DNA of 64,000 nucleotides from Aureococcus anophagefferens (Eukaryota > Sar > Pelagophyceae > Pelagomonadales > Pelagomonadaceae). This document shows positions 26,480 to 57,901 of the stretch, in pieces. Each line of letters starts with the position of its first letter. The first letter of the stretch is position 1. The stretch lies in the NCBI RefSeq assembly GCF_000186865.1, contig NW_008705561.1:435711-499710 (forward strand), written 5' to 3'. The position numbers were made by a program, and so were the translations under genes. The notes under the pieces are model-generated. The model worked only from the letters and a program-made list of their open reading frames with translations. It made no database searches and was not told where the DNA came from.

Positions 26480-29400
26480 TCAATGCGGCGTCGCCTTGGA
26501 GAGGAGGCCCGAGCCGACGCCGGCCATGATGGACTTGAGGGAGTCCGTGATGGACACCTCCGCGAGCACGGGGCCGACGAGGTGCGTCGCGAAGCGGAAG
26601 GCGAGCGCGTAGAGGTTGATGCCGTCGTGGCCCGGCTTCGCGGCGAGCTTCTCGCGGAGGTCGAGGCCGTCGACGTAGATGGCGTGGATGTCCTTCTCCT
26701 GCTCGCCGCGGAAGCCCATGAAGAGCGCCTTGAGGTGGAAGTTGATCTGCGAGAGCTCGAAGGAGCGGACGTCGAAGAGCACGGGGAAGTCCTGGAGCAT
26801 GGTCGTCACGGCCGACAGGCTGCCGATCTTCAGGTTCGTCTCCGCGGAGCAGAAGTTCAGCTGGTCCATGGCCTTGTAGGGCCGCTTCGCGAGGACGTCG
26901 TCGTGGTCCCGGGGCCCGTCGTCCTCGTCGCGCGCCCAGGACAGCTCGAGGTCCAGGTCGCCCGTCGCCGTCTTCCACGTCGCGTCGCGCAGCTCCATGG
27001 ACCCCGTGAGGCAGAACGCGTTCGCCTCCGTCTTCGCCTCCAGGTCGTCGCCCCTCACGTACGTCGGCGCGAGGACGAGCATCTTCAGCGTCACGATCCA
27101 CTGGCCGACGAGGTGGTCCGGCCCGACGAGGTCCTCGTAGATCTCGACGTGGAGCACGGCGCTCGGGTCGACGACGTCGACCTGCCAGCGCAGGTTGAAG
27201 GGCCCCGCGGCGCCTACCAAGTGCGACGGGGTCGGATTTCTTCACATCTTCAGGCGAAATTCACGCGAAACAACACTCCTGTTGCTCGACGCTGCGCGGC
27301 GCCGGCCGCGTCCGCGAGGCACCGCCGGCTCTCCTTCGACTCGCCCCGGACCGTGAGCACCGCGTAGAGCTTGTGGCCCCGGGGCAGGTGCTCCCGGTCG
27401 CAGCGCACGCGGCCCACCTTGACGTGGAGCACGTTCGGCGCCTTGAGGCGCCGCGCGGCGAGCGCCTGGCCGACCTTGCCCTCCGCGAGGCGCCGCACGT
27501 AGTTGTTGACGTTGAACTCGCCGTTCCGCGCCCCGATGTCGAAGGCGATGGTGACGCCCCGCGCCTTGAACTCGCGGATCTTCAACGCGAAGAGGTGCGT
27601 CGCGACGAAGTCGGCCCCAAAGGCCGCGCGGATCTTCGCGTGCTCCGACGGGAAGGGCGACCACGCGACCGCGGGCCGCTTCTTGTCCGCGCGGAGGCTC
27701 ACGTACTGGATCGTCGCCGCGATCTTGCCCGCGGGGGCGCCCTTCTTGCGCAGCGTCAGGTTCAGCGTCCGCGAGTCCCCGACCTTGACGCCGGACCCGG
27801 GCAGCAGCGGCACTTCGTCCGTCGCGCCGACGAACATCGCGTCGACGTGGTCCTCCGGGTCCTTGTCGTAGACCAAAAAGTGGACGCAGCGGCCGTCGCG
27901 CGCGGTCCGCGAGCTCGCGAGCTTCTCGCGGAGGGCCTCGAGGGGCACCGTGAACTCGAGCCACGTCGGGTCGAGGTCGCGCGTCTTGTGCTCCGTGACG
28001 GCGACGTTCGGGTGGCGGTCGAGCTCGTACTCGGAGACGTCGCTCCGCTCGCCCCAGGACACGACGTTCTCACTGGACGCGCCGGACGCGCGGCAGAGCA
28101 GCGACACGTCGTACGCGCCGCCGAGGCCGTCCGCCGGCGGCGCCGCGTTCGGCCGCGAGAGCGCCGCGACGCGCACGAAGGGGTCCAGGGACCCGTCGCG
28201 CTTGTGGAAGAACTGGTCCCGCGGCGCGAGGCCCGAGGCCGCGAGCAAGACGCGCGCGTGCGTCGGGCCGCGCGCGTTCCGCCCCGGCGAACCCCCCGGC
28301 GAGCCCGGGGGCGCCGCGGGCGCGGACGCGTCCGCGCCGTCCTCGTCGGCGACGAGGCGCTTGTAGGCCGAGAAGAGGCCCAGGCCGAAGCGCTTCATGT
28401 CCACGGCGAAGCTCAGCGTGAGCTGCTTCACTGCGACCTGGGCAGCAAAAGGGTGCGAAATTCCCAACTTCAAAGGCTCCTCTCTCGGCCGTTTTCCACT
28501 CGTTTCGGCTGATTCTTGGACGAGCGATCATCTCTCGGGACGGTCTCGAAGCGTGGGTGCTGTTTCCGAAACGCGCGCGCGCGGAACACTCACGTTGAAG
28601 CGACGTTGAATCACCCTTTTGCTGCCCTGACGGCCACAAAGTCCGCGTGCACGTAGCCCGCGTCCGGGTCGTTCGCGAGTCGAAAGTCGTCGACGCCGAC
28701 GGTGAGCATGGCCTCCCGCGACGCGTGCGGCGGCGCCGCCGGGTCGCTGTAGAACTGGGCGTGGAGCCGCAGCGCGCCCATGCTCAGGCCCAGGCCCGGC
28801 ACGGCCGCGCCCAGGATCTTCGTCAGCGCGAGGCCCAACAGCTGCGGGAGCTCGAGGTAGAACCAGAGCGCGAGCGGCGGGAAGACGACGAACAGCGCGT
28901 GGTGCGCCCGCAGCCAGCGGCACAGCGCGACGAACCACAGCGCGGCGGCCGCGGCCGCGAAGCGCCGCCAATGATCCGCGAGCTTCCGGAGGCTCGGCGG
29001 GTAGTCGTGGTGCGCCGGCTGGGCCCAGAGGACGACGCGGAGCGTGCCGTTGTGCGTCGTGTCGCCCGTCATGCCCGTCCGCAGCAGCGTGTAGGACTTG
29101 GGCCGCAGGCCGTGGGGCTGGCCGAACGACGCGGCGTCGACGCCTGGGCGGCACGAGAGTGATTCAACGTCGCTTCAACGTGAGTGTTCCGCGCGCGCGC
29201 GTCACGAGAAGAACATCCACGCGTCGAGACCGTTCCGAGAGATGATCGCTCGTCCAAAAATCAGCCGAAACGAGTGGAAAACGGCCGAGATATGAGCCTT
29301 TGAAGTCGGGCATGTCGCTCTCTTGTGCTGCCCCGGTCGACGCGGCAGCAGTCGCTCAGGGGCACCTCGACGTGGCCGAGGCTGTGGTCCGTGACGTCGT

Positions 29401-30848: not shown

Positions 30849-30879
30849 CAGAAGCCGCATGGCCACAGGTACATGTGGC

Positions 30880-37742: not shown

Positions 37743-39146
37743 ATGCGACAAATCCTCCTCGCCCTCTCTGCCGTCGCCGCCGCCACAAAACCATCAGAGA
37801 AGGCCGATTTCCGCAAGCCGTCGCGCGAGGGGCAGAAGCCCTGGGACCTCTTTGGTATTCTCGGCTGGTGGAACATCGGTCCCGGCATCGGGTGCCCCTT
37901 CGACGAGCCGTCGGACGCGTCGTGGACGCTCAAGGGCGGCGACCACCGGGACTGCGCCTGGCTCCAGCGCGCCGACCCGGACAAGCGGCGGCTCTTCTGC
38001 GGGAAGCGCGGCGCCGGCGGCGTGCCCGCGGCCGAAGCGTGCCCGCACGCGTGCGTTCATTGCTGCGACGGCGCGGCGCTCTTCGGCGGCGGCGCGCCCG
38101 ACGCCGCGTGCGCCGCCGTCGGCCGCGAGTTCTCAGACGCCGCCAAGGCAGCGGCGCGGCTCGACAGCTTCTGCGACGACCCGCCGGCGCGCGCTCGCGC
38201 GACTACTACCCGGACGTTCATGACGGGCCCGCGCTTCATCCAGGGCGCGTGCTTCGGCCGCTTCCAGGAGGCGCACCTATCCGTGAACGCGACGGCCATG
38301 CAGCGCGAGTGCTGCGACCCGAAACTGATCCGCGAGCGCATCCGCGCGGGCCACCGGCGCGACCGGAATCCGAAGAGCGCGGATCCCGAGCCGTACCTAC
38401 TCTTCCCGCGGTCCCAGGTCGAGGCGGCGCGCTTCTATGCGTCCACATCGACGCGCGACGTCGACGTCAACTTCCTCGGGCGGCTCCACCTCGGGGCGCC
38501 CGTGGCGCTGCTCGAGTATACCCAAAAAGCCTGGGGCGACTACGTCGCGCTCGACTTCAGCGGCCACGTCGCCGCGTCGATGCGCCGCTGGGTGCTGCCC
38601 TTCGTGAAGCGCTACTTCACGGCCGAGTCCGTGCTCGTGGACACGTCCGCGGAGGACGCGGCGACCTACGCGCCTTTGGGCGCCTTCGACAAGACCGTCG
38701 CGGGCGGGACGCTCGCGGGCTTCCGGCCCATGACCGTCGCATGGGTGTCGGCCTTTGGCAACCGCAGCGTCCAGACCTGCCGGAAGGCGACCTGCGACCC
38801 GTCCTACTACGCGACGCTCGCGCGGTCCCGCTTCACGCTCGCGCCCGCGGGCGACATGCCCTGGTCGACGCGCTTCTTCGAGGCCATCATGGCCGGCTCC
38901 GTCCCCGTCGTCTCGAGCGAGGACCACGCGGGCCGCAACGCCGAGGAGAAGGCGCTCGGCTACAAGTACCTCCTCGTCTCCGAGTACGTCGCGCGGCGGA
39001 CGCGGTTCCCGGGCGCGGTCCCGTACTGCGACAAATGGGCGGCGCACAACCTCGCGATCTTCCTCGAGCACCAGTCCTACATCGCGGACCCGAGCACCGT
39101 CCGACCGAACGTCGACCGGTGCCGCGCCGAGGCCGACATGCCGTAA
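37743..39146 (+). CDS. Exostosin-like (GT47-type) glycosyltransferase, paralogue 1
   Basis: A 467-residue protein with signal peptide MRQILLALSAVAAATKP. The first third is Cys-rich (GWWNIGPGIGCPFDEP, CPHACVHCCDGAALFGGG). The C-terminal half has the exostosin/GT47 nucleotide-sugar region: YYATLARSRFTLAPAGDMPW, TRFFEAIMAGSVPVV, then a C-terminal helix NLAIFLEHQSYIADP. LLFPRSQVEAARFYAST and DVDVNFLGRL are shared with two more paralogues (41349-42725 and 48393-49814), so this is a local family. Golgi glycan synthesis is likely; donor and acceptor unknown. Divergent from the ankyrin gene. Confidence 0.75.
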   Translation: MRQILLALSAVAAATKPSEKADFRKPSREGQKPWDLFGILGWWNIGPGIGCPFDEPSDASWTLKGGDHRDCAWLQRADPDKRRLFCGKRGAGGVPAAEACPHACVHCCDGAALFGGGAPDAACAAVGREFSDAAKAAARLDSFCDDPPARARATTTRTFMTGPRFIQGACFGRFQEAHLSVNATAMQRECCDPKLIRERIRAGHRRDRNPKSADPEPYLLFPRSQVEAARFYASTSTRDVDVNFLGRLHLGAPVALLEYTQKAWGDYVALDFSGHVAASMRRWVLPFVKRYFTAESVLVDTSAEDAATYAPLGAFDKTVAGGTLAGFRPMTVAWVSAFGNRSVQTCRKATCDPSYYATLARSRFTLAPAGDMPWSTRFFEAIMAGSVPVVSSEDHAGRNAEEKALGYKYLLVSEYVARRTRFPGAVPYCDKWAAHNLAIFLEHQSYIADPSTVRPNVDRCRAEADMP

Positions 39147-39218
39147 TTTGTGGGGGGAGGGATCGAGGGTCTTTGGTCTTTGGGGCGTATGCTTGTGCCC
39201 CGGCTTGCGTGTTGCCCC

Positions 39219-40773
39219 TCAGTCGTCGATGGAGAGGACGGCGAAGCTGACGGCGTAGGACGCGGGCGCGGCGGCCTGGAACGCGCCGAGCCAGCCGGAC
39301 GGCGCGGCCGCGTCCATCGCGGCGAGGTCGTAGTGGTCCGGCTTGGCGGCGAAGTAGTCGAGGAGCGCCGCGGTGTTCGCGGCGAGGTCCTGGAGGCGGT
39401 GGGCCTCGTCTCCCAGGACCTGGACGTATTTCTCGCCGTAGTCGCCGTCGTAGTCGCCGGGGCCGCGGCAGACCGCGCGCGACGCCGCGGGCGAGATCGT
39501 CGAGCAGAGGAACTTGGCGAGGTCCGCGACGGGCACGGGCGCGTTCGCCGCGGGCGCGTCGGGGGCCGGCGCGCCGCCGCCGCCGAAGGACCAGATGCGC
39601 TTCTTCGTCGCGACGTCCGCGCCCGCGCGCTGCTTCGCGGCCTGAGTGGGAATCAAATCTTCAACCCGACTTCAATGTGAGCGTATGCGCCGGTTTCGAC
39701 GCAGGGCCTTCTGCCGTGCTTCGAGAACTCAATGAGAGCAATCGATTCGTCCAAAAATCAGCCGAATCGACTGCGGTTTGGCCGAGATAGAGAGTTCTGA
39801 AGTTTGGTTGGGATAACCCAGCTCACTGTTTGATTTCCACACAGTTCGCGGCGAGCATCGCGTCGACGCAGCGCCGGCGGACGTCGGCCTGCGCGAAGCA
39901 CGACAGGGGCAGGCCCTGGAACGTGAGGGGCTCGAGCATGGCCTTGCCGAGGCTCGACCGCGCGCGGTACCCCGCGAAATCGTTGTAGAAGAGCCGCGAC
40001 TCGTGGATGATCTTCGGCGAGAGCACGGCCTCGGCCGCGAGCGCGGACGCGCCCGCGTCGGGTTCCGCCTCGCGGCCGGCCTTGGCCGCGATGTGCGTGC
40101 CCTTGGCGTCGGCGAGCTCCGCCGCGGCGCCCCGGAGCGACGCGCGCCGCGGCGCCGTCGGGCCCGGCGTCGCGTCGACGGCGACGAACCGCGTGACCTT
40201 GGCGAACTGGAGCCGGAGGCAGCCCAACTCGTTCGCCGCGCGCGCGGCGGCGTCGTCGACGCGGGCCCGCTTCTCGGGCGGCGCGGCCTCGCCGTTCGCG
40301 TCCGCGAGCGCCGCGCGCGCGGACGACGCCGCCGCGGAGCCGAACGCGAACGGGTACGACTCGAGCTTGTTCGCGAAGAAGCCGCGGACGACGTACTCCG
40401 TCTCGCCGGGGCCGAGCCAGAAGTAGTGGTCCGGCGTCGACCGGTCCGTCGTCGACGCCGCGGACGCGTCGGAGCCGCGGCCCGGGCCGCAGGCCTCGTA
40501 GACGACGTCGGGCGCGCCGGAGTCGACGTAGACGCGCGCGCCGTAGAGCACGCCCTCGGGCGGCGGCCGCGCGAGCGTCACCTTGATCTCGAACTTGCTG
40601 CCCGCCTCGGCGCAGAAGAAGGCCGAGGACGCGGTCGAGGTGGCGTCGTCGGCGCTCTCCTGGTAGTACGCGATGGGCGACAGCCGCTCGCCCTCGACGA
40701 CGAGCGACGTCTGGAAGTAGATCGATTCCTCGTCCTGAGACGACTTGACGGTGGATGACTCGGCCTGGCCCAT
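39219..40773 (-). CDS. Unknown protein with predicted N-myristoylation site, two exons
   Basis: Exons 40773-39853 and 39641-39219 give 447 residues. The N-terminus MGQAESSTVK fits an N-myristoylation signal (Gly2, Ser6), so membrane attachment is likely. Residues about 20-150 look like a beta-sandwich: IYFQTSLVVEGERLSPIAYY, KFEIKVTLARPP, GARVYVDSGAPDVVYEACGP and HYFWLGPGETEYVVRGFF. An Ala-rich helical linker and a charged region follow. Exon 2 encodes a Gly/Ala/Pro linker and a helical C-terminus ending AVLSIDD. I do not recognise the family. The intron (39642-39852) is a family A introner with a perfect 8-bp duplication. Confidence 0.6.
39642..39852 (-). mobile_element. Introner element, family A (diverged subfamily A2), 211 bp
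   Basis: Phase 0 intron with GCCGCGAA duplicated at both ends; GC donor, ACTCAG acceptor. The terminal inverted repeats are CTGTGTGGAAATCAAA and, reversed, CTGAGTGGGAATCAAA. The body keeps the family A core CGATTCGGCTGATTTTTGGA and a TTCTCGAAGC block, and so is related to the 200-bp copies although its ends differ. Confidence 0.88.
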
Positions 40774-41348
40774 GATGAGAGGTGCCTGCGGGGGATGCGG
40801 TCGCGCGAGCGGCGGAAGCGCGACGACGGCGCGAACGAGCCGAGTGCGTATTTTTTCGTACGACGAGCCCGCGAGCGCGTTCGTCTGGTCTCCCGGCGTC
40901 GCGGTTCGCGCGCAGAAGTGTCATGGGGCTTTCGATAACGGCCCGAGCTTCGTTTGTAGTCGCCTCGCACGACAGACCGATGAACGGCTTTCTCGTCGCC
41001 GCCGGGGGGCGCAAATCCTCGGCGCCGCTCCCCGACACTTTTTCATGATCCAAAGGCATATGCGAATCGAATGCGACACCAAGAGAGTAGACACGGGTGG
41101 CGCACAGCGACGGCAAAGACGACGAAGCGGTCGAGGTGAAGCGAAGGTTCTCTCAGCTTCACGGCGGAGGCGCCCCGCTGCGAGGCGCGAGAGGAGGCCT
41201 GAGAGGCCTCGTACTAGTCGTAGCCTCCTCGTGAGGCCTCGCCGGCGACCCCTCCAGCCTGCCGGCCGCGTCGCCTCGACGCGCTCGTCGTGGATGAACC
41301 CGTAGGCATACGCATTCGTATGCGTCGCCAATTACGCTCGAAATATAT
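40774..41348. other. 575-bp intergenic stretch, no gene seen
   Basis: Between the unknown myristoylated-protein gene and glycosyltransferase paralogue 2. Frames on both strands are Arg-rich by-products of composition. A short palindrome, GCATACG-CATT-CGTATGC, lies near 41305-41322, and a related GCATATGCGAATCGAATGCG occurs near 41057. I see no RNA gene. Confidence 0.5.
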
Positions 41349-42725
41349 TCACGCGAACCGTTCCGCGAGGCACCGGTCGAGGCGCGGGCGGACCGTGGTC
41401 GGGTCCTCGATGTAGGACTGGTGCTCGAGGAAGATCGCGAGGTTGTGGTCCGCCCACTCGGCGCAGTAGGGCGCCGCGCCCGGGAACCGCTTCCGCCGCG
41501 CGACGTACTCGGAGACGAGGAGGTACTTGTAGCCGAGCGTCTTCTCCGCGCGATTCCGGCCCGCGTGCTCCTTGCTCGAGAGGATCGGCACGCTCCCGGC
41601 CATGATCGCCTCGAAGAAGCGGAGGGACCAGGGCATGTCGCCCGCGGGCGCGAGCGTGAAGCGCGACCGCGCGAGTTTCTCGTAGTAGGCCGGGTCGCAC
41701 GTCGCGCGCTTGCAGCTGCTCGCGTTGACGCCGCTGAACGACATGGGCCGGAAGCCCGCGGCGGATGACGTTTTGTCGAACGCACCGCGCGACACGTACG
41801 TCGCCGCGTCGGTTATGGACGTGTCCACGAGGACGGACTCGGCCGTGAAAAAGGCGTCGACGAAGGGCCCGAGCCAGACGCGCATGCTCGCGGCCACCCG
41901 CGTCGAGAAGACGTCCGCGTCGTAGTCTTCTCGCAACACGTAGTCGAGCAGCGGCGACCCGTCGTCGTCGCCGTGGAGCCGCCCGAGGAAGTTCACGTCG
42001 ACGTCCCGCGTCGACGCGGACGCGTGCGCGCGCGCCGCCTCGATCTGGGACCGCGGGAACATGAGGTAGCGGTCGCCCGCCGGATGATTCCCCGGAAGGT
42101 TCCCGCGGATCGCGCGCTGGATGGTCCGCCGCTCGCGGGCCCGCTCGCGGTTCAGCGCCGCGAAGCTGCAGCACGTCGCCCGCATGTCGCGGCTCAGCGC
42201 CGCGTCGTCCGGCGAGTCGTGGACGTGGGCCTCCTGGAAGCGGCCGAAGCACTTGGACTGCGCCGCGCGCGGGCCGGGGAAGAACGTCAGCGCGTGGTCG
42301 TCGTAGGACCGCGCCGGCGGGTCGTCGCAGAAGCTCTCGAGCGTCGCCGCGGCCGCGGCCGCGTCGGCGAACTCGCGGCCGACGGCGGCGCACGCGCCGT
42401 CGGCCGCGCCGCCGCCGACGAGCGCGGCGCCGTCGCAGCAGGCCACGCACGCGTTCGGGCACGCGGCCGCCGCCGCGGCGGCGCCGCAGGCTCGCCGTCG
42501 GACGTCGGGCGCGCTCGTCTGGAGCCGGGCGCAGGTCCGCCGCGCGCCGTCCGAGCCGACGAAGCTCCCCGCGCCCGGCTCGTGGAACGGGCACCCGACG
42601 CCGTGGCCCAGGTTCCACCACCCCAGGCTCCCTTTGCCTTCGTAGGGCTTCGGCGCGGAGCTATTGTGACCGCGTTGTTTGGGTTCGGCGCACGCGACGG
42701 CGCAGAGAGCGAGGAGGCGTCGCAT
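41349..42725 (-). CDS. Exostosin-like (GT47-type) glycosyltransferase, paralogue 2
   Basis: A 458-residue protein with a signal peptide (MRRLLALCAVACA). It shares the Cys-rich N-terminal half (GHGVGCPFHEPG, CPNACVACCDGAALVGGG), YLMFPRSQIEAARAHAS, DVDVNFLGRL and the GT47 core KLARSRFTLAPAGDMPWSLR, FFEAIMAGSVPILSS with the other paralogues. It is much closer to paralogue 3 (48393-49814) than to paralogue 1; the last 120 residues of 2 and 3 are almost the same. Those two genes bracket the MYND array in the same orientation. Probably Golgi glycan synthesis. Confidence 0.75.
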   Translation of the reverse strand: MRRLLALCAVACAEPKQRGHNSSAPKPYEGKGSLGWWNLGHGVGCPFHEPGAGSFVGSDGARRTCARLQTSAPDVRRRACGAAAAAAACPNACVACCDGAALVGGGAADGACAAVGREFADAAAAAATLESFCDDPPARSYDDHALTFFPGPRAAQSKCFGRFQEAHVHDSPDDAALSRDMRATCCSFAALNRERARERRTIQRAIRGNLPGNHPAGDRYLMFPRSQIEAARAHASASTRDVDVNFLGRLHGDDDGSPLLDYVLREDYDADVFSTRVAASMRVWLGPFVDAFFTAESVLVDTSITDAATYVSRGAFDKTSSAAGFRPMSFSGVNASSCKRATCDPAYYEKLARSRFTLAPAGDMPWSLRFFEAIMAGSVPILSSKEHAGRNRAEKTLGYKYLLVSEYVARRKRFPGAAPYCAEWADHNLAIFLEHQSYIEDPTTVRPRLDRCLAERFA

Positions 42726-42779
42726 CGTTTTGCGTCGCTCCGCGCCCGCGAGAGAGGCTCGCAGACACGCTCTTGCAAT

Positions 42780-42795
42780 GCGTCTCTAAACGTAC
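42780..42795. promoter_or_regulatory. Shared upstream motif of two glycosyltransferase paralogues
   Basis: GCGTCTCTAAACGTACG lies about 55 bp upstream of the ATG of paralogue 2. The same motif, TACGTTTAGAGACGC, lies at about 49903-49918 upstream of paralogue 3 in the opposite orientation. It could be a regulatory element or residual duplicated DNA. Confidence 0.35.
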
Positions 42796-42963
42796 GCGAC
42801 GAGCGCGGTCGATGGCTCAGAGAGCCTCACAGGCGCGCGGGTGTGCCATGGACGCGCTCAGTCTCGCCACAGCAATCGGCGATTAATCGCAATTCTCAGA
42901 GCAGGTGGTCGATCGAGAGTCGATCTGGAGGCGCCCCCCCTGTCGTCGTCGCGCGCCGAAGTC

Positions 42964-44022
42964 ATGTCGTGGCAGGAGAAGAAGTTGGAGTATGAGAATC
43001 GCATGGCCCGAGCGAGGGGCAAAAAACTCGACACTCTCAAGACCTGCACGATCTGCGGCGCCGACAAGGCCAAGGCGTGCCGAGGTTGCGGCACGACGGC
43101 CTACTGTTCGACGGACTGCCAACGCATCGACTGGCGCGACCGGGGCCACCGGAAGGTCTGCAAGAAGATCCAGGCCGCGGAGGCGGCGCGGGCGGAAGCG
43201 CCGACGCGCCCGCCGTCGCCGCCGCGGGACGTGTTCTACGGCCCCGCGCCGCGGTCGGACGCCGACGTAATCCGCGCGCGCATCGCGGCGGAACACGAGG
43301 CCGCCCGCGCGCGGCGCGAGGCGAACCCGGAGCGAGAGCCGCTGTCTGCGCGGTACGGGTCGCGGTGCCCCATCTGTCTCGAGGAGTGGGACGTGAATGA
43401 TATGGGCATGTTACGCGTCTGTTGCTGCCGGACGGTCTGCCGATCGTGCGAGGACAAGATTGGCATCGGTGCGTGTCCCCTCTGTCGTGTATCGCGCGCA
43501 GAAAGCGATGCGGAAAACCTCGCCCGCCTGCGCCGCCATGTGGAGAACGAAGTGCCGGAAGCGATTACGTTTTTGGGAACTGCGTACCGCCGCGGTTACT
43601 TCGGCCTCGTGAAATCCGATAAGAAAGCCGCGAAAATTTGGAAGCGCGCCGTGGAGCTCGGGGACGTGGAAGCAATGAGCCACCTTGCGGAATTGTACGA
43701 GGATGGAAGTGGCGTCAAGCTGGACAAGAAGAAGGCGGAGCGGCTGTATCGCATGGCCGCAGACCGAGGCGACGCGTACGCGCAAAACAGTTTAGGGAGT
43801 TTACTTGATGCTGAAAAGAAACATGAAGAAGCGTTCCGGTACTTCGCGCTCGCGGCGAATCAAGGCGAAACTTTTGCAGAGATCAGCCTTGGCTGCTGTT
43901 ACAGGCTCGGACAAGGCACGGAAGTCGACCTCGGCAAAGCCAGGTACTGGTTCGAGCGCGCCGCTGCCAAGGGCGACGAGGATGCTAAAGGTGCCCTCGC
44001 GCGCCTCGACGAGCAATTATAG
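42964..44022 (+). CDS. MYND-RING-Sel1 repeat protein, tandem copy 1
   Basis: A 352-residue protein starting MSWQEKKLEYENRMARARG. Domains in order: MYND zinc finger (about 27-68: CTICGADKAKACRGCGTTAYCS, CQRIDW, HRKVCKK); a charged helical linker with AAEAARAEAPTRPPSPP; a RING-like finger (CPICLEEWDV, then RVCCCRTVCRSCEDKIGIGACPLC); and four to five Sel1 repeats of about 36 residues (AITFLGTAYRRGYFGL, AMSHLAELYEDGSGVKLD, AQNSLGSLLDAEKKHEE, AEISLGCCYRLGQGTEVD, ARYWFERAA). The RING suggests ubiquitin ligase activity and the Sel1 solenoid protein binding; both are family-level inferences. First of four head-to-tail copies. Confidence 0.85.
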   Translation: MSWQEKKLEYENRMARARGKKLDTLKTCTICGADKAKACRGCGTTAYCSTDCQRIDWRDRGHRKVCKKIQAAEAARAEAPTRPPSPPRDVFYGPAPRSDADVIRARIAAEHEAARARREANPEREPLSARYGSRCPICLEEWDVNDMGMLRVCCCRTVCRSCEDKIGIGACPLCRVSRAESDAENLARLRRHVENEVPEAITFLGTAYRRGYFGLVKSDKKAAKIWKRAVELGDVEAMSHLAELYEDGSGVKLDKKKAERLYRMAADRGDAYAQNSLGSLLDAEKKHEEAFRYFALAANQGETFAEISLGCCYRLGQGTEVDLGKARYWFERAAAKGDEDAKGALARLDEQL

Positions 44023-44341
44023 CCTAACTTTTTCGCCGCGTCGTCGCCCGAGCCCGAGATGCTGCGCTTCAAGTTGCGCGCGGGCGAGTCGTGCTTGGCC
44101 TTGGCCTCGTCGTCGCCGCGTTCCTCTCCGCGCCGACCTTCACGGTCTGGTGCCTCGCGTTCGTGAACGCGAAGCCCGCCTGGCGCAAGGACGACGACGC
44201 CGCCAAGGGGGGCATGGAGAACAACATGAACGCGATGCTCTAGGGGTGGCTTAGCCTGGGGTAAGATTTTGAGCGATTTTGCCTTGCGGGTCGCGGTACT
44301 GTAGTAAGTCGAGTCGAGAGGGATAGGACGCGCCCCGAGTC
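44023..44341 (+). pseudogene. Spacer with fragment of a small membrane-protein gene, copy 1
   Basis: From 44082 to 44243 the frame reads GLGLVVAAFLSAPTFTVWCL then AFVNAKPAWRKDDDAAKGG and ends at TAG. It looks like a membrane segment plus tail from the last exon of an unrelated gene. It has no start. The same fragment follows copies 2 and 3 of the MYND array, so it belongs to the duplicated unit. The region before copy 2 carries GATAGGACGCGCCCCGAGTC directly ahead of its ATG. Confidence 0.55.
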
Positions 44342-45400
44342 ATGTCGTGGCGGGAGAAGAAGTTGGAGTATGAGACTCGCATGGCCCGAGCGAGGGGCAA
44401 AAAACTCGACACTCTCAAGACCTGCACGATCTGCGGCGCCGACAAGGCCAAGTCTTGCGCAGGTTGCGGCACGACGGCCTACTGTTCGACGGACTGCCAA
44501 CGCATCGACTGGCGCGACCGGGGCCACCGGAAGGTCTGCAAGAAGATCCAGGCCGCGGAGGCGGCGCGGGCGGAAGCGCCGACGCGCGCGCCGTCGCCGC
44601 CGCGGGACGTGTTCTACGGCCCCGCGCCGCGGTCGCACGCCGACGAGGTCCGCGCGCGCATCGCGGCGGAGCACGAGGCGGCGCGGGCGCGGCGCGAGGC
44701 GAACCCGGAGCGGGAGCCGCTGTCTGCGCGGTACGGGTCGCGATGCCCGATCTGCCTCGAGGAGTGGGACGTGAATGTTATGGGGGGGCTTCGCGTCTGT
44801 TGCTGCCGAAAGGTCTGCCAATCGTGCCGGGGCAAGATCGGCATCGACGCGTGTCCCCTCTGTCGCCTACCGTGCCCAGAAGATAGTGCGGAACAGCTCG
44901 CGCGTCTGCGCCGCCATGTGGAGAACGAGGTGCCGGAAGCGATTACGTTTTTGGGAGAGGCGTACTTTCGCGGTCTGTTGGGCCTCGTGAAATCCGATAA
45001 GAAAGCGGCGAAGATTTGGAAGCGCGCCGTGGAGCTCGGGAACGTGGACGCGATGGTAGTTCTTGGGGTTTCGTACCAGAATGGAAGTGGTGTCAAGCTG
45101 GACAAGAAGAAGGCGGAGCGGCTGTTTCGCATGGCCGCAGATCGGGGCCACGCGGTCGCGCAATCCAATTTAGGGATTTTACTTTACCATGAGGAGAAAT
45201 TTGAAGAGGCGTTCCGTTACTTTGTGCTCGCGGCGGATCAAGGCTTTACCGATGGAGAGAACAACCTTGGCTGCTGTTACAGGGACGGAAAAGGCACGGA
45301 AGTCGACCTCGGCAAAGCCAGATACTGGCTTGAGCGCGCCGCTGCCAAGGGCAGTGAGCTAGCTACAAGGAACCTCGCGGACCTCGACGCGCGAGTGTAG
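44342..45400 (+). CDS. MYND-RING-Sel1 repeat protein, tandem copy 2
   Basis: A 352-residue paralogue of copy 1 starting MSWREKKLEYETRMARARG, with MYND finger CTICGADKAKSCAGCG, RING CPICLEEWDVNVMGGLRVCC and about five Sel1 repeats (AMVVLGVSYQNGSGVKLD, AQSNLGILLYHEEKFEE, GENNLGCCYRDGKGTEVD). The DNA from the second MYND half to the RING (about 44455-44765) is almost identical to the other copies, while the Sel1 part is more diverged. Its immediate leader is the same as that of copy 4, so copies 2 and 4 may share regulation. Confidence 0.85.
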   Translation: MSWREKKLEYETRMARARGKKLDTLKTCTICGADKAKSCAGCGTTAYCSTDCQRIDWRDRGHRKVCKKIQAAEAARAEAPTRAPSPPRDVFYGPAPRSHADEVRARIAAEHEAARARREANPEREPLSARYGSRCPICLEEWDVNVMGGLRVCCCRKVCQSCRGKIGIDACPLCRLPCPEDSAEQLARLRRHVENEVPEAITFLGEAYFRGLLGLVKSDKKAAKIWKRAVELGNVDAMVVLGVSYQNGSGVKLDKKKAERLFRMAADRGHAVAQSNLGILLYHEEKFEEAFRYFVLAADQGFTDGENNLGCCYRDGKGTEVDLGKARYWLERAAAKGSELATRNLADLDARV

Positions 45401-45717
45401 CCTAAGTCTATACGCCGCGTCGTCGCCCGAGCCCGAGATGCTGCGCTTCAAGTTGCTCGCGGGCGAGTCGTGCTTGGCCTTGGCGTCGTCGTCGCCGCGT
45501 TCCGCTCCGCGCCGACCTTCGCGGTCTGGTGCCTCGCGTTTCTGAACTCGAAGCCCGCCTGGCGCAAGGAAGAAGACGCCGCCAAGCGGGGCATGGAGAA
45601 CGACATGAGCGCAATGCTTGAGGGGTGGGCTTACCCGGGGTAAGATTTTGAGCGATTCTGCCTTTGCGATCGGCCGAGGAGCCTGGAGCGACGCAAGGAC
45701 GCGCGCGGTAAGAGGCC
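45401..45717 (+). pseudogene. Spacer with membrane-protein fragment, copy 2
   Basis: From 45461 to 45643 the frame reads GLGVVVAAFRSAPTFAVWCL and NSKPAWRKEEDAAKRGMEND, ending at TAA after GWAYPG. It has the same fragment as at 44082-44243, still open but with an Arg in the membrane segment, and has no start. The rest of the spacer resembles the other array spacers. Confidence 0.5.
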
Positions 45718-46767
45718 ATGGACCCGGAATTGATCAAGAAGAAGCGAGAGTACGAGGCGCGAAAAACCCGTACGAAGCTGGCGCTCAACATATGCACGAT
45801 TTGCGGGAAGAAGGATGCCCGGCCCTGCAAAGGTTGCGGCACGACGGCCTACTGTTCGACGGACTGTCAACGCATCGACTGGCGCGACCGGGGCCACCGG
45901 AAGGTCTGCAAGAAGATCCAGGCCGCGGAGGCGGCGCGGGCGGAAGCGCCGACGCGCGCGCCGTCGCCGCCGCGGGACGTGTTCTACGGCCCCGCGCCGC
46001 GGTCGCACGCCGACGAGGTCCGCGCGCGCATCGCGGCGGAACACGAAGCGGCGCGGGCGCGGCGCGAGGCGAACCCGGAGCGGGAGCCGCAGTCGGCGCG
46101 GTACGGGTCGCGGTGCCCGATCTGCCTCGAGGAGTGGGACGTGAATCTGCCGGGCGTGCTTCTCGTCTGTTGCTGCCGAAAGGTCTGCCGATCGTGCAAC
46201 GACAAGATCGGCATCGACGCGTGTCCTCTCTGTCGTTTACCGCTAGGAAGCGATGCGGAGCAGCTCGCGCAGCTTCGCCGCCATGTGGAGAACGAGGTAC
46301 CGGAAGCGATTACAAGTTTGGGAAATGCGTACCGCCGCGGTTACTTCGGCCTCGTGAAATCCGATAAGAAAGCCGCGAAAATTTGGAAGCGCGCCGTGGA
46401 GCTCGGGAACGTGGACGCGATGGTACACCTTGGGATATTGCACCAGCATGGAACTGGCGTCAAGCTCGACAAGAAGAAGGCGGAGCGGCTGTATCGCATG
46501 GCCGCAGATCGGGGCGACCCGGTCGCGCAATGCAATGTAGGAAAGTTACTTGATTCTGAGGAGAAACATGAAGAGGCGTTCCGGTACTACGCGCTCGCGG
46601 CGGATCAAGGCTTTACCCCCGGGGAGACTCTCCTTGGCCTTTGTTACCACGAAGGAGAAGGCACGGAAGTCGACCTCGGCAAAGCCAGGTACTGGTTCGA
46701 GCGCGCCGCTGCCAAGGGCAACGAGGATGCTAAAGGTGCCCTCGCGCGTCTCGACGCGCGAGCATAG
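45718..46767 (+). CDS. MYND-RING-Sel1 repeat protein, tandem copy 3
   Basis: A 349-residue copy with a replaced N-terminus (MDPELIKKKREYEARKTRTK) and a modified first MYND half (CTICGKKDARPCKGCG). From GTTAYCSTDCQRIDW onward it is again nearly identical to the others. The RING reads CPICLEEWDVNLPGVLLVCC. Five Sel1 repeats follow (AMVHLGILHQHGTGVKLD, AQCNVGKLLDSEEKHEE, GETLLGLCYHEGEGTEVD). The sharp change from diverged to identical sequence inside one gene suggests gene conversion or a recombinant origin. Confidence 0.85.
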   Translation: MDPELIKKKREYEARKTRTKLALNICTICGKKDARPCKGCGTTAYCSTDCQRIDWRDRGHRKVCKKIQAAEAARAEAPTRAPSPPRDVFYGPAPRSHADEVRARIAAEHEAARARREANPEREPQSARYGSRCPICLEEWDVNLPGVLLVCCCRKVCRSCNDKIGIDACPLCRLPLGSDAEQLAQLRRHVENEVPEAITSLGNAYRRGYFGLVKSDKKAAKIWKRAVELGNVDAMVHLGILHQHGTGVKLDKKKAERLYRMAADRGDPVAQCNVGKLLDSEEKHEEAFRYYALAADQGFTPGETLLGLCYHEGEGTEVDLGKARYWFERAAAKGNEDAKGALARLDARA

Positions 46768-47091
46768 AGCCTAACAATATTTACGCCGCGGCTTCGCCCG
46801 GGCCCGAGATCCTGCTCTTGCGCGCGGGCGAGTCGCGCTTGGCCTTGGCGTCGTGTCGCCGCGCGCCTCTCCGCGCCGACCTTCGTGGTCTGGTGCCTGG
46901 CATTCTTGAACGCGAAGCCCGCCTGGCGCAAGGACGACGACGCCGCCAAGGGGGGCATGGAGAACGACATGAGCGCGATGCTTGAGGGGTGGGCTTAGGC
47001 CTGGAGTAGGCTTTGAGCGATTTTGCCTTTGCGAGCTCGCGAAGTCGAGTCGAGACCTCGAGAGGAGCGGCGATAGGACGCGCCCCGAGTC
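46768..47091 (+). pseudogene. Spacer with membrane-protein fragment, copy 3, frameshifted
   Basis: The fragment is seen again from about 46826 to 46998 (SAPTFVVWCLAFLNAKPAWR ... MENDMSAMLEGWA, TAG), but a small deletion near 46850 puts the membrane-segment half out of frame. This shows the fragments are not maintained by selection. Confidence 0.5.
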
Positions 47092-48156
47092 ATGTCGTGG
47101 CAGGAGAAGAAGTTGGAGTATGAGAATCGCATGGCCCGAGCGAAGGGCAAAAAACTCGACACTCTCAAGACCTGCACGATCTGCGGCGCCGACAAAGCCA
47201 AGGCTTGCGCAGGTTGCGGCACGACGGCCTACTGTTCGACGGACTGCCAACGCATCGACTGGCGCGACCGGGGCCACCGGAAGGTCTGCAAGAAGATCCA
47301 GGCCGCGGAGGCGGCGCGGGCGGAAGCGCCGACGCGCGCGCCGTCGCCGCCGCGGGACGTGTTCTACGGCCCCGCGCCGCGGTCGCACGCCGACGAGGTC
47401 CGCGCGCGCATCGCGGCGGAACACGAGGCCGCCCGTGCGCGGCGCGAAGCGAACCCGGAGCGAGAGCCGCTGTCTGCGCGGTACGGGTCGCGGTGCCCGA
47501 TCTGCCTCGAGGAGTGGGACGTGAATGCTGAGTGGGTGTTACGTTGCTGTTGCTGCCGAAAGGTCTGCCGATCGTGCGAGGGCAAGATCGGCACCAACGC
47601 GTGTCCCCTCTGTCGTGTACCGTACCCGGAAGATAACGCGGAAAACCTCGCGCGTCTTCGCCGCCATGTGGAGAACGAGGTGCCGGAAGCGATTACGTTT
47701 TTGGGAAGTGCGTACCGCGGCGGTCGGTTGGGCCTCGTGAAATCCGATAAGAAAGCCGCAAAGATTTACCGGCGCGCCGTGGAGCTCGGCGACGTGGACG
47801 CGATGGCATTTCTGGGGGAAATGTACGACGCCGAGGACGGGGAAGGCGTCAAGCTGGACAAGAAGAAGGCGGAGCGGCTGTATCGCGCGGCCGCGGACCG
47901 GGGCGACGCACACGCGCAAAACAATTTGGGGGTTTTACTTTACTGTGAGAAGAAATTTGAAGAAGCGGTCCGGTACTACGCGCTCGCGGCGAATCAAGGC
48001 TATACCGATGGAGAGTATAACCTTGGCTGCTGGTACCGCGATGGAAAAGGCACGGAAGTCGACGTCGGCAAAGCCAGATACTGGTTCGAGCGAGCCGCTG
48101 CCAAGGGCGACGAGGATGCGAGGAAGAACCTCGCGTGCCTCGACGCGCGAGTGTAG
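47092..48156 (+). CDS. MYND-RING-Sel1 repeat protein, tandem copy 4
   Basis: A 354-residue copy starting MSWQEKKLEYENRMARAKG, closest to copies 1 and 2 at the N-terminus. MYND finger CTICGADKAKACAGCG, RING CPICLEEWDVNAEWVLRCCC, and Sel1 repeats including AMAFLGEMYDAEDGEGVKLD (two residues longer than in the other copies), AQNNLGVLLYCEKKFEE and GEYNLGCWYRDGKGTEVD. The linker between the fingers is almost the same as in all copies. It is the last of the array and is followed by a different gene fragment. Confidence 0.85.
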   Translation: MSWQEKKLEYENRMARAKGKKLDTLKTCTICGADKAKACAGCGTTAYCSTDCQRIDWRDRGHRKVCKKIQAAEAARAEAPTRAPSPPRDVFYGPAPRSHADEVRARIAAEHEAARARREANPEREPLSARYGSRCPICLEEWDVNAEWVLRCCCCRKVCRSCEGKIGTNACPLCRVPYPEDNAENLARLRRHVENEVPEAITFLGSAYRGGRLGLVKSDKKAAKIYRRAVELGDVDAMAFLGEMYDAEDGEGVKLDKKKAERLYRAAADRGDAHAQNNLGVLLYCEKKFEEAVRYYALAANQGYTDGEYNLGCWYRDGKGTEVDVGKARYWFERAAAKGDEDARKNLACLDARV

Positions 48157-48163
48157 CCTAAGT

Positions 48164-48346
48164 CTTGCCGCGCTCGCGATCAACATCACCACCAAGAAGC
48201 TCGCCGACCCCTACGGCCACGACCTCGACGACATCCACATCCTCTCGCTCTGCAAGCTCATGCCCGGCGCCTGCGCGCGCATCCTCGAGACGTCGCCGCC
48301 GCCGCGCTCCGCCGAGACTACGACCACGTTCGTTCGTTCGAATTAA
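48164..48346 (+). pseudogene. Orphan C-terminal fragment, possibly bestrophin-like
   Basis: The frame reads LAINITTKKLADPYGHDLDD, IHILSLCKLMPGACARIL and ends at TAA (48344-48346). NPFG/DPYG-D-x-DD segments occur near the end of bestrophin-type channels, so this may be a piece of such a gene, but the match is short. It has no start and directly follows MYND copy 4. Confidence 0.35.
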
Positions 48347-48392
48347 TTCAATCCCGCCGCGCCGAGTCCGCCGAGACTACGACATAAAGTAA

Positions 48393-49814
48393 TCACGCGA
48401 AGCCCTCAGCGAGGCACCGGTCGAGGCGCGGGCGGACCGTGGCCGGGTCCTCGATGTAGGACTGGTGCTCGAGAAAGATCGCGAGGTTGTGGTCCGCCCA
48501 CTCGGCGCAGTAGGGCGCCGCGCCCGGGAACCGCCTCCGCCGCGCGACGTACTCGGAGACGAGGAGGTACTTGTAGCCGAGCGTCTTCTCCGCGTGGTTG
48601 CGGCCCGCGTGCTCCTTGCTCGAGAGGATCGGGACGGAGCCGGCCATGACGGCCTCGAAGAAGCGGAGGGACCAGGGCATGTCGCCCGCGGGCGCGAGCG
48701 TGAACCGGGACCGCGCGAGTTTCTCGTAGTAGGCCGGGTCGCAGGTCGCCTTCTTGCAGGTCGTGGCCCCCGTCGTGAAGTTGAGCGCGATGGGCCGGAA
48801 GCCCGCGAGCGCGCCGTCGCCGCCGACGGACCGGTCGTAGGCGCCGAGCGGCACGTGGGTCGCGGCGTCTTTGACCGACGTGTCCAGCAGCACGGAGTCC
48901 GCCGTGAAGTAGCGCTTCACGAAGGGGAGCACCCAGGCGCGCATGCGCGCCGCGACGCGCGACGAGAAGACGACGGGGTCGTAGTCCTTCCGTAAAGCGT
49001 AGTCGAGGAGCGACGCGCCGTCGTCGCCGTCGCCGTCGTAGAGGCGCCCCATGAAGTTCAGGTCGACGTCGCGCGTCGACGTCGCCGCGTAGTGGCGCGC
49101 GGCCTCGATCTGGGACCGCGGGAACATGAGGTAGCGGCGCGTGTCCTCGATCGTGCCCCGGATGATCGCGGACGCGTTCCTCCGCCCGCGGTTCAAAATC
49201 TGGTAGTTGCAGCAGCTCGCCTGCATGTCCCGGCTCAGCGCCGCGTCGCCGGGCGATGCGGACACGTGGGCCTCCTGGAATATGCCGAAGCACGCGCTCT
49301 CCACCGCGCGCGGGCCCGGGTAGTGCGTCCGGTTCGCGTCGTCGTGCCGTCGCGGCGGCGGGTCGTCGCAGAAGCTCTCGAGCGTCGCCGCGGCGGCCGC
49401 GGCGTCCGCGAACTCGCGGGCGACGGCGTCGCAGCGCGGGCCGGGCGACGCGTCGAGGAACGAGGCGCCGGCGCAGCAGCGGACGCACGCGTTTGGGCAC
49501 GCGTCCGCCGCGGCGACGCCGGAAGCGCCCGTCTGGCGGCAGAGGCGGGCCCGCTTCTCCGGCGGCTTCTTCTGCGTGGCGTTGCAGGTCTGCTTCGCGC
49601 CCCGGGGGCCGACCCAGTGCCACCCCGGGTCCTCGGCCTCGAAGAAGGGGCACCCGATGCCGTGGCCCAAATTCCACCACGCCGGCGGGCCCTTCTTTGA
49701 CCCGATGGTTTTCTTAATTGGCGCGTCGGCCGCGGCGCCGGCCTGCTTCTCCCGCCGCGTTTTTCCCGCGGACGCGACGGCGCCGAGCAAGACGACGCGT
49801 AGCAAGCGCGTCAT
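48393..49814 (-). CDS. Exostosin-like (GT47-type) glycosyltransferase, paralogue 3
   Basis: A 473-residue protein with a signal peptide (MTRLLRVVLLGAVASAGK). It shares GHGIGCPFFEAEDP, CPNACVRCCAGASFLDA, YLMFPRSQIEAARHYA, DVDLNFMGRLYDGD and the GT47 core KLARSRFTLAPAGDMPWSLR, FFEAVMAGSVPILSS with paralogues 1 and 2. The C-terminal about 360 bp are nearly identical in DNA to paralogue 2, 7 kb away. That points to recent duplication or gene conversion across the intervening MYND array. Confidence 0.75.
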   Translation of the reverse strand: MTRLLRVVLLGAVASAGKTRREKQAGAAADAPIKKTIGSKKGPPAWWNLGHGIGCPFFEAEDPGWHWVGPRGAKQTCNATQKKPPEKRARLCRQTGASGVAAADACPNACVRCCAGASFLDASPGPRCDAVAREFADAAAAAATLESFCDDPPPRRHDDANRTHYPGPRAVESACFGIFQEAHVSASPGDAALSRDMQASCCNYQILNRGRRNASAIIRGTIEDTRRYLMFPRSQIEAARHYAATSTRDVDLNFMGRLYDGDGDDGASLLDYALRKDYDPVVFSSRVAARMRAWVLPFVKRYFTADSVLLDTSVKDAATHVPLGAYDRSVGGDGALAGFRPIALNFTTGATTCKKATCDPAYYEKLARSRFTLAPAGDMPWSLRFFEAVMAGSVPILSSKEHAGRNHAEKTLGYKYLLVSEYVARRRRFPGAAPYCAEWADHNLAIFLEHQSYIEDPATVRPRLDRCLAEGFA

Positions 49815-52399: not shown

Positions 52400-52406
52400 G
52401 CGCGTG

Positions 52407-54773: not shown

Positions 54774-55195
54774 CGTCGCGGACTGCTACTCGGTGCTCAA
54801 GCCTCGAGAGTCTTCAAGCTCGCGAGCGACTTGGCGCATGAAGCCTGCATGTTGCAGATTTCGAGCGGCGTGCGCATCCGTCCTGGCGTTCTCGAAGCGC
54901 ACCATGTCCCGAGGCCCGTCGGCTGCATGCCTACTCGCGATGCTGGGTGGTGCTGAGCTAGGTAACCCTCCGGAAAAATCGAAGAAGGGGCCCATAAGGT
55001 CGAAATTTGGGCGGGAGAGCGCAGACCCTTGGCGCTGGACATCCAGCCCGGTCGACCGAGGCCCGGCCGCGCATCGCGCGCGCAATACACGACGCAGGCC
55101 TCGGATGTCGCCGCGCGGCGCCGATGCACACCGAGGTTGAAGGCAATGAGAGCCTAATGAGCAATTTCTGCCACTGAGTTCTTGATCTCGGCGCG
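54774..55195. other. Intergenic region between divergent YbaB and trifunctional-enzyme genes
   Basis: About 420 bp, probably a bidirectional promoter. No coding signal on either strand. It is locally less GC-rich than the genes on either side (for example around 55135-55190). Confidence 0.5.
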
Positions 55196-57901
55196 ATGAG
55201 CTCGCTACTGCGGTATTCTGCCCGCCAGGTCGCCGTCGCGGGCCGGCGGCGGCTCAGCGCCCAGCCCGTGGCGTCCGAGGGGTCGCGGAGCTGGGAGTTC
55301 TTCGCCGGGGACCCCGAGGTGACGGCCGACGGCGTCGCCATCGTGCGCCTCGATGCGAAGAAGGCGAAGATGAACACGCTGAACCCGGCGCTCCAGGCCG
55401 AGGCCCAGGAGATGTGGAGCGAGCTCATGGAGGCGCGCGGAAATGACGTCAAGGCCGCCGTCTTCATCTCCGCCAAGCCCGACAACTTCATCGCGGGCGC
55501 GGACATCTCCATGCTCGCGGCGAAGAAGGCGAGCGGCGACGAGGACTCGCTCGAGGCCATCTGCCTGAGCGGGCACACCATGTTCGCCGAGCTCAAGGCG
55601 ACGAACATCCCCATCGTCGCGGCCATCCACGGCGCCTGCCTCGGCGGCGGCCTCGAGTGGGCGCTCAAGTGCGACTACCGCGTCGCGTCGACGTCCCCGA
55701 AGACGAAGCTCGGCCTGCCCGAGGTGAAGCTGGGCCTCCTGCCCGGCTGGGGCGGCACCTACGCCCTGCCGAAGCTCATCGGCCTCACGGAGGCCCTGCC
55801 CATGATCCTCCAGGGCAAGGAGGTCAAAGCGGACAAGGCGAAGAAGCTCGGCCTCGTCGACGCCGTCTGCGACCCCGCGGCGCTGGAGCGGCTCGCCGTC
55901 GCCAAGGCCGCGGCGTTGGGCAACGGCTCGCTGAAGCTCAAGGAGAAGAAGAAGTCGTGGATGCGCTGGGCCACGGAGGACGTGAGCTTCGGCCGCGACT
56001 TCGTCTTCAAGAAGGCCAAGGAGACCGTCGACAAGACGACGCGCGGCAAGTACCCGGCGGCCTACGAGATCATGGACTGCGTGAAGCACGGGCTGGGCAA
56101 GAGCCCCGAGGAGGCCTTCGCCTTCGAGGCCAAGGCCTTCGTGCGCCTCGCGAAGACGCCCGAGTCGTCCGCGCTCATCGGCCTCTTCGACGGCGTCGCG
56201 CCGCGTGGGAATCGACCGCCGGTTCGGGACGTCCCCGACCAAACTTGAAATTCTCGGTCAATTCGAAGTCGATTCGGCTGATTCTTGGACGGATCGGTTG
56301 CTCTCGTCGAGTTCTCGAAGCGCGGCCGAAGAGGCTGGTCCGAACCGTTCGATGACGCGCGCGTCGAAGTCGGGGTGAAGATTTGAGTTCCACGCAGGCA
56401 TCACGGCGTCGAAGAAGAACCGCTACGGCAACGCTTCGGACCCGGCGACGCTCAAGGCGCTGGACACGGTGGCCGTGCTCGGCGCGGGCCTCATGGGCGC
56501 GGGCATCGCCCAGGTCTCCGCGGAGAAGGGCCTGAACGTGCTCCTCAAGGACGCGTCGCCCGAGGGTTTGGCCAAGGGCGTCGACTACGTCGGCGGCAAC
56601 CTGGCCAAGAAGGTCAAGCGGCGCCGGATGACGGACTACACGCGCAACACGATCACGTCCAAGGTGATGGGCTACCACGACGGCCCCGGCGGCGGCCAGG
56701 GCAGGACAAGAGAGCGAAATTCCCAACTTCAAAGGCTCATATCTCGGCCGTTTTCCACTCGTTTCGGCTGATTTTTGGACGAGCGATCATCTCTCGGATT
56801 GGTCTCGAAGCGTGGATGCTTTTTCCGGAACGCGCGCGCGCGGAACACTCACGTTGAAGCGACGTTGAATCACCCTTGTCCTGCCCAGGCGGCGGCGGCG
56901 ACGCCGCGTGGCTCCGCAAGGCCGCGACGGCCGACGTCGTCGTCGAGGCCGTCTTCGAGGATCTGGACCTGAAGCACAAGGTCTTCCAGAGCGTCGAGCC
57001 CCTCGTGTCCGAGGCCTGCGTCCTCGCGACGAACACGTCGGCGATCCCCATCGCCAAGGTCGCCGCGGGCGCGGCGAAACCGGAACGCGTGCTCGGCATG
57101 CACTACTTCAGCCCCGTGCCCCAGATGCAGCTCCTGGAGATCATCCCCCACGCGGGCACGGACCCCAAGGCCATGGCCGCGGCCTTCGCCGTCGGCATCA
57201 AGCAGGGCAAGTTCTGCATCGAGGTCAAGGACGTGCCCGGCTTCTACGTGAACCGGTGCCTCGCGCCCATGATGGCGGAGCTCGCGCCCCTCTTCCAGGA
57301 CGGCGTCGAGCCCAAGCAGCTCGACGAGGCCATCCTGGACCTGGGCATGCCCGTGGGGCCCGTGACGCTCATCGACGAGGTCGGCGCGGACGTCGGGCTG
57401 CACGTGCAGCGCACGATGCTCGCGGACGAGACCATGGGGGGCCGCATGGCCGGCGCGGACCCGGCCATGCTCCAGGCCGTCGTCGACAAGGGCTGGCTCG
57501 GCCGCAAGTCCGGCAAGGGCTTCTTCGTCTACGACGGCAAGAAGAAGACGCCGAACGCGGAGGCGAACGCGTACGTCGAGTCCGAGGTCAAGCGGCGCGA
57601 CGCCGGGCTCTCCGTGGAGACGATCCAGGACCGCTACCTCACGCGCTTCGTCAACGAGGCCGCCGTCTGCCTCCAGGAGGGCATCCTCAAGACGCCCGCG
57701 GACGGCGACCTCGGCGCCGTCTTCGGCGTCGGCTTCCTCCCCTTCACGGGCGGGCCCTTCCGCATGCTCGACGCCGTCGGCGCGGCGACCTACGTCGACA
57801 AGATGAACCGCCTCGCCGACGAGTACGGCGACCGCTTCGCGCCCTGCGACCTCCTCGTCGACCACGCGAACTCGGGCAAGAAGTTCTACCCGTCCAAGTA
57901 G
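55196..57901 (+). CDS. HADHA: Mitochondrial trifunctional enzyme alpha subunit (enoyl-CoA hydratase / 3-hydroxyacyl-CoA dehydrogenase)
   Basis: Three exons (55196-56192, 56398-56688, 56889-57901) give 766 residues, close to the human protein. The N-terminus MSSLLRYSARQVAVAGRRRL is Arg-rich and amphipathic, as for mitochondrial import. The hydratase half has FIAGADISML, HGACLGGGLEWALKCDYR, and LPEVKLGLLPGWGGTYALP with the catalytic acids. The dehydrogenase half has VAVLGAGLMGAGIAQVSAEK (NAD), VVEAVFEDLDLKHK, NTSAIPIAKVAA, and MHYFSPVPQMQLLEII with the catalytic His. It catalyses two steps of long-chain fatty-acid beta-oxidation and normally partners a thiolase beta subunit, not seen here. Both introns are family A introners, of two different ages. 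Confidence 0.93.
56193..56397 (+). mobile_element. Introner element, family A (subfamily A2), 205 bp
   Basis: Phase 1 intron. Flanking octamers GCGTCGCG and GCATCACG agree at 6 of 8 positions; GC donor, ACGCAG acceptor. Terminal inverted repeats are CCGCGTGGGAATC and, reversed, CTGCGTGGAACTC. The body has GATTCGGCTGATTCTTGGAC and GTTCTCGAAGCG, the A core. Excision gives FDGITASKKNRYG, matching the family. Flank and end divergence suggest it is older than the 200-bp copies. Confidence 0.88.
56689..56888 (+). mobile_element. Introner element, family A, 200 bp
   Basis: Phase 1 intron. GCGGCGGC is perfectly duplicated at 56689 and 56889. Ends are CAGGGCAGGACAAG and, reversed, CTGGGCAGGACAAG. The rest is near-identical to the two copies in the C2 gene 28 kb away (for example TTTTCCACTCGTTTCGGCTG). 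Excision gives HDGPGGGDAAWLRK. Confidence 0.92.

Follow-up and report, generated by a model that had tools for sequence, protein, structure and literature searches.

In Micromonas pusilla, introners are introns that derive from short repeats in genes and co-opt one splice site. Those of Aureococcus anophagefferens carry one splice site and co-opt the other. A CAGGG-like end motif is found in MITEs that are mobilised by hAT-type transposases. Introners of M. pusilla and A. anophagefferens were reportedly described by Huff, Zilberman and Roy in Nature in 2016.

Introner length in A. anophagefferens is put at about 210 bp in an excerpt of PMC9481584. The available part of PMC10228655 states in general terms, from Huff 2016, that introners insert in both orientations, and it places insertion between nucleosomes in A. 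anophagefferens and M. pusilla. Splice sites are co-opted in several ways according to the accessible passages of PMC9860276 (Gozashti et al., 2022), which also describe an Aureococcus sp. introner family 4 that has an 8-bp duplication, brings both splice sites with it and lengthens the transcript by 12 bp. As excerpted, PMC7789003 holds that direct repeats, terminal inverted repeats and canonical splicing motifs are invariably present in the elements of A. anophagefferens. The part of PMC3488318 at hand contains nothing further on the introners of this species.

We analyzed a window of 64,000 nucleotides of A. anophagefferens DNA, in which five introns are very probably introner elements, that is, short non-autonomous DNA transposons. 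They resemble the A. anophagefferens introners in length (about 200 bp), direct repeats, inverted-repeat ends and the pairing of a carried with a co-opted splice site, and introners in general in occurring in both orientations. The link to Aureococcus drawn in the preliminary description of this DNA is borne out: the elements are most likely of the kind already described in this species, and so are already known and do not add a further species. Their likeness to the M. pusilla introners, from another lineage, is one of description (introns from short repeats with a co-opted site). Aureococcus sp. family 4, as far as the excerpt describes it, shares the genus and the 8-bp duplication but differs in carrying both splice sites. 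The hAT-mobilised MITEs have 8-bp duplications and, as here on one side, a CAGGG-like end, whereas the outer ends of the window elements are unlike each other (CA...AG, gene sense). What the present analysis adds is a measure of the strictness with which surviving copies keep to the splicing rule, in end-rule counts, coding strand and GT enrichment. At the level of titles and abstracts we found no prior report of the end-rule counts or of two mirror-image classes, and novelty is not claimed. The system offers a very clean signature of intron birth by DNA transposition.

Results

Five Introns in the Window

The five introns reported in the preliminary description were all found, with the positions and lengths given there, and are mutually related. 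Two lie in one minus-strand gene. The first, at 28438-28637 (200 bp, GT-AG), is an antisense-type intron of subfamily A; its element spans 28438-28629, and the intron copy (28630-28637) and exon copy (28430-28437) of its direct repeat match at 6 of 8 positions. On the plus strand its ends read CTGGGCAGC...GCTGCCCTG, and the reading frame is open across the joined site. The second, at 29144-29343 (minus strand, 200 bp, GC-AG), is of the sense type of subfamily A and consists of the element 29144-29335 and the intron copy (29336-29343) of a perfect 8/8 repeat, with the exon copy at 29136-29143. Another minus-strand gene contains the subfamily B intron at 39642-39852 (211 bp, GC-AG), which has CTGTGTGG-like ends and an 8/8 repeat (intron copy 39845-39852, exon copy 39634-39641); its joined site has a coding score of 62.9 and is free of stops. 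The last two lie in a plus-strand gene for an enoyl-CoA hydratase/3-hydroxyacyl-CoA dehydrogenase. One is a subfamily B intron at 56193-56397 (205 bp, GC-AG), with repeat copies at 56193-56200 (intron) and 56398-56405 (exon) that match 6/8 by reading; its coordinates were also set by reading, as automated placement took another register, in which the coding score was negative. The other, at 56689-56888 (200 bp, GC-AG), is a sense-type intron of subfamily A with an 8/8 repeat (intron copy 56689-56696, exon copy 56889-56896). The donor, by reading, is GC in four of the five introns and GT in the 28438 intron alone.

Terminal inverted repeats were found at the element ends in each of the five, and the octamers outside them were as first described, three perfect and two matching at six of eight positions. 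The three 200-bp introns had been called nearly identical. They are related, but the wording is generous for a mutual identity of 88-91% (BLAST among window elements). The 39642 and 56193 introns are 77% identical over 172 bp, and the two groups have core pieces of 23-62 bp in common, at 76-91% (both BLAST). Judged by these identities, the five introns form two related subfamilies, A (28438, 29144 and 56689) and B (39642 and 56193), and the single family first proposed stands as to relatedness but not as to number. The ends of subfamily A follow CNGGGCRGS...SCYGCCCNG, and those of subfamily B are mostly CTGTGTGG...CCACACAG. Sense orientation in the gene had also been claimed for all five. For the introns this is correct, as GY...AG is read along the coding strand in 5/5 cases. 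It is not correct for the element itself: the core is inverted relative to the gene in 28438 and in sense in 29144, from the same gene, and in 56689.

Copies across the Genome

The 49-Mb assembly (86 contigs, window included) was searched with the window elements, as the preliminary description had suggested. The 28438 element recurs in at least 40 places at 95% identity or more, the 40 listed being on 19 contigs; the segment 56697-56878 has at least 40 matches at 97% or more, and the 39642 element at least 40 at 87% or more, each count including the window's own copy. The elements are therefore not unique to the window, and many of the copies have 8-bp duplications. With the inverted-repeat ends and the frame kept across the empty site, these copies support the introner reading, and the many at 95-99% identity bear out, at the level of sequence, the proposal that the family was recently active. 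The fetched copies were chosen by similarity to three window elements and are not a random sample.

Counts of end patterns, which are unbiased by place but need intact end sequences, gave the same picture. Left ends with at most one mismatch numbered 1,964 genome-wide (7 for a reversed control pattern) and right ends 1,222 (control, 1); exact antisense-type left ends numbered 488 and exact sense-type right ends 904, with a control count of 0 for both. A chance origin of the family is excluded because there are at least 40 close copies and 1,964 left ends against 7 in the control. Among the first 100 of the 1,222 right ends, 64 end in AG and are read as sense-type, and 36 lack AG and are read as antisense-type; from the 1,964 left ends, too, this comparison drew on the 100 listed. 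Searches of viral contigs with two exact patterns for introner cores returned 0 matches each.

Anatomy of the Copies

From the fetched DNA, 90 of 99 subfamily A copies were parsed; five short hits had been dropped beforehand, and L001-L008 were excluded as places fetched again or inside the window. Among the nine unparsed copies, L100, L015:4499, L027:4892, L013:5302 and L015:8036 fit the same rule by reading, L088 and L016:7583 are each missing an end, L026:9847 is truncated where the locus stops and L028:7040 is badly diverged. In gene sense, a copy runs repeat, CN, GGGCRGS, core, inverted end, AG, repeat. The first two element bases are CA in 77, CG in 10, CC in 2 and AA in 1 (n = 90), giving CN...AG ends in 89/90 and AA...AG in one. 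Direct repeats at the standard spacing match at 7-8 of 8 positions in 85/90 copies, and three more do so at a shift of 1-2 bp; the exceptions are 28438 (6/8) and L093, which has none. Over their first 12 bp the inverted repeats agree fully in 66/90 copies, with one mismatch in 19 and two in 5. The core is in sense orientation in 51 copies and antisense in 39, and AG lies on the gene strand in both kinds.

Three of 32 subfamily B hits were too short and were left out, and 4 of the remaining 29 could not be placed in register. The inverted repeats agree at 9-16 of 16 positions in the 29 copies. CTG stands at both ends in 20/25 in-register copies, and AG is therefore offered on either strand; 9 copies fit the sense reading, 10 the antisense reading and 6 both.

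The outer 12 bp of the inverted repeats seem to be kept alike within a subfamily A copy. Positions 7 and 9 agree between the ends in 72/90 and 81/90 copies, where about 47 would be expected; positions 13 and 15 often differ. RNA structure was considered as the cause of these paired variants and rejected: departures at positions 7 and 9 are, by reading, not G-U pairs, and the one intron that was folded did little better than its shuffles (z = -0.71, with 45 of the 200 folding equally well). An Rfam search of 28300-29500 gave no match. Shared descent is our preferred, tentative explanation of the paired variants.

Some copies depart from the common plan. In L093 the ends are intact and the direct repeat is absent, and the flanking octamers are nearly inverted copies of each other; it is possibly a rearranged site. 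In L009:2677 and L010:3089 the exon bases after the direct repeat resemble the element's own end, so that the apparent duplication exceeds 8 bp.

Donor Rule and Splice-Site Choice

Sense-type right ends are followed by GY in 893 of 904 exact cases, and antisense-type left ends are preceded by RC, the same rule on the other strand, in 474 of 488. GY accounts for 20% of the dinucleotides in exon flanks, which is the expectation for this rule, and it is broken at 25 of the 1,392 ends. Four ends (L121-L124) were fetched and read by eye, three of them seeming exceptions among those listed and the fourth an odd end. L121 is a GA-AG candidate that would need a GA donor, with a coding signal on the same strand to its left and right. 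The other three conform to the rule, with small indels in L122 and L123. The donor-side repeat starts with GC or GT in 88 of the 90 parsed subfamily A copies. In the other two, L085 has an N, and L019 reads TC at the best shift with GT one base further. Judged from these ends, one predicted splice site is carried by the element and the other is borrowed from the target that it duplicates.

Among the 85 copies whose repeats are clear, the donor is GC in 43 and GT in 41 (N in 1). GC makes up 79% of the GY available in exons, and GT donors are thus enriched about 3.6-fold (p about 1e-8). A splicing filter would select for such an excess over exon supply, and a transposase is not expected to care. 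The other half of the repeat has RC at positions 7-8 in 26/85 copies (22% expected, p = 0.09), a weak mirror preference. GC-AG introns make up 39.6% of all introns in A. anophagefferens and were called an enigma, according to the available text of PMC3033335 (2011). Introners that borrow any GY of a GC-rich exon, with about half of the donors GC, offer a partial answer. The canonical splicing motifs named in the excerpt of PMC7789003 contrast with these GC donors, half of those among the copies here.

Proposed Mechanism

The model that we favor builds on features read directly from the DNA, namely the direct repeats, the inverted-repeat ends, the frame across the empty site, the genome-wide copies and both core orientations. 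An element, landing in either orientation of its core, would duplicate an 8-bp target. If the target, read on the coding strand, starts with GC or GT, its donor-side copy would become the 5' splice site, with the 3' splice site provided by the terminal CCCAG of the element (CACAG-like in subfamily B). Exact removal of the intron, with splicing itself presumed, would restore the mRNA. We infer that the elements are moved by an unseen transposase and that insertions that cannot be spliced are removed by selection.

A genome-wide search for an autonomous partner, limited to exact inverted-repeat ends joined to an unusual next base, returned 16 places, none of them a partner. All were fetched, and 16/16 proved to be introner copies in which a base has changed; one copy runs into N. 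A single transposase family was tried: the model for the hAT dimerisation domain (PF05699) gave 0 hits, and its control was also silent.

Coding Context and the Choice of Insertion Sites

The sense or antisense label of each copy was taken from its ends alone, and a codon model then scored the joined flanks. Because its training set consisted of long open frames in the same loci, the model is not wholly independent of the flanks. This could be done for 54 of 90 subfamily A copies, the other 36 having too little flank. At fixed spacing, 53/54 copies scored on the predicted strand; when shifted repeats were joined accordingly, 54/54 did, all with a score of at least 20. A score of at least 20 on either strand was reached at 63% of 3,000 random sites in the window and 55% of 3,000 in 20 ten-kb loci, the latter sites not having been cleared of introners. 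When stops were disallowed and a lead of 20 over the opposite strand was required, 51/54 copies qualified, against 52% and 42% of the random sites. Intron phases 0, 1 and 2 occur 24, 13 and 16 times (53 copies).

No copy outside coding-like sequence was found among the 54, and filtering alone does not explain this well. One alternative to random placement followed by a filter is that chromatin, transcription or the splicing machinery directs insertion to transcribed coding exons. We regard this as possible but doubtful. It gains from the fact that all 54 copies are coding-like though 37-45% of random sites lack a comparable signal, and from how few ends violate the GY rule. On the other side, a splicing filter fits both the surplus of GT relative to GC and the rarity of any other donor, weak coding may hide among the random sites, and the reported preference for nucleosome linkers might suffice.

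A further proposal concerns the two mirror-image classes. In the younger subfamily, A, the outer bases CA...AG, which define the splice sites, are fixed to the gene strand and the core is flipped inside the inverted repeats. Cores might flip by recombination between the inverted repeats, with insertion coupled to coding exons and not only filtered afterwards, a combination that we consider unlikely. The coupling may be real, because the donor rule holds at about 98% of ends and 0/54 testable copies lie outside coding-like sequence. As for the flipping, a tree of the cores puts 32 of 39 antisense copies in one supported group and 7 among sense copies. Five switches between sense and antisense are needed on this tree, but its well-supported branches force only one, too few to establish recurrent switching. 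Were cores to flip, one element would serve both gene orientations without re-evolving a splice site.

Spread through RNA, by reverse splicing of an excised intron into a different transcript and subsequent copying back into DNA, would also place copies in coding-like sequence on the spliceable strand, as in 54/54 testable cases. We consider it highly improbable: in nearly every intron the first eight bases come from the target and are duplicated, where a reverse-spliced intron would be expected to bring its own constant 5' end, and the core is found both along and against the direction of transcription. Inheritance of one intron by paralogous genes, which the duplicated stretches of the window might suggest, can be dismissed almost entirely, as similarity ends at the element and its 8-bp repeat, the host exons differ between copies (by reading) and the 40 listed places of the 28438 element are spread over 19 contigs.

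Host Genes and Protein Evidence

Without its two introns, the 56-kb gene encodes a 766-residue enoyl-CoA hydratase/3-hydroxyacyl-CoA dehydrogenase. Two public proteins, P0012 (98% identity) and P0013 (87%), align through the 56193 and 56689 junctions without insertion; the source of P0012 would be either spliced RNA or an empty site. Four more distant relatives align through the first junction and are a few residues shorter or different at the second. The gene with the 28438 and 29144 introns has no homologue at an E value of 0.001 or better, and there the frame alone therefore supports splicing.

An A. anophagefferens enoyl-CoA hydratase, P0014, is identical to the predicted protein over residues 1-283 (283/283) and 345-420 (76/76) and matches at 274/301 positions over residues 440-766. 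P0014 lacks about 60 residues ahead of the 56193 junction. At the 56689 junction it contains RAGQESEIPNFKGSYLGR, which is the window element translated in another frame from 56698. Since P0014 carries this translated piece, the 56689 element appears to occupy the same site in a public sequence of A. anophagefferens, where part of it was annotated as coding. The divergence of P0014 looks like a poor gene model, and introners may damage other public gene models too. P0023, a second protein named A. anophagefferens, is 98% identical over 441 aligned residues. A tabulated identity of 84% had first suggested that the species was a mere relative of A. anophagefferens, an idea that was abandoned once the proteins were compared block by block; the source is most likely A. 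anophagefferens itself. Elsewhere in the window, the ion-channel protein encoded at 60914-63994 speaks against that name, with matches named A. anophagefferens at 35% and 46% and another match at 98%; a gap in public annotation would be a candidate explanation of this discrepancy.

Other Repeats in the Window

Several diverged duplicates of longer stretches, 74-88% identical and in both orientations, lie within 37860-49684. At 24979-25496, repeats spaced about 95 bp apart form an array that overlaps long open frames. A shorter repeat of about 75-95 bp occurs at 10278-10376 (plus strand), 11609-11708 (minus) and 15665-15760 (minus), with GTCC...TAG boundaries by reading. No inverted repeat of 12 bp or more was found within a copy, and 41 of the 42 genome matches listed for it have at least 89% identity, the window's own included. 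This repeat looks like another introner family, one that carries both splice sites, and in that respect it may be nearer to Aureococcus sp. family 4 as excerpted from Gozashti et al. (2022).
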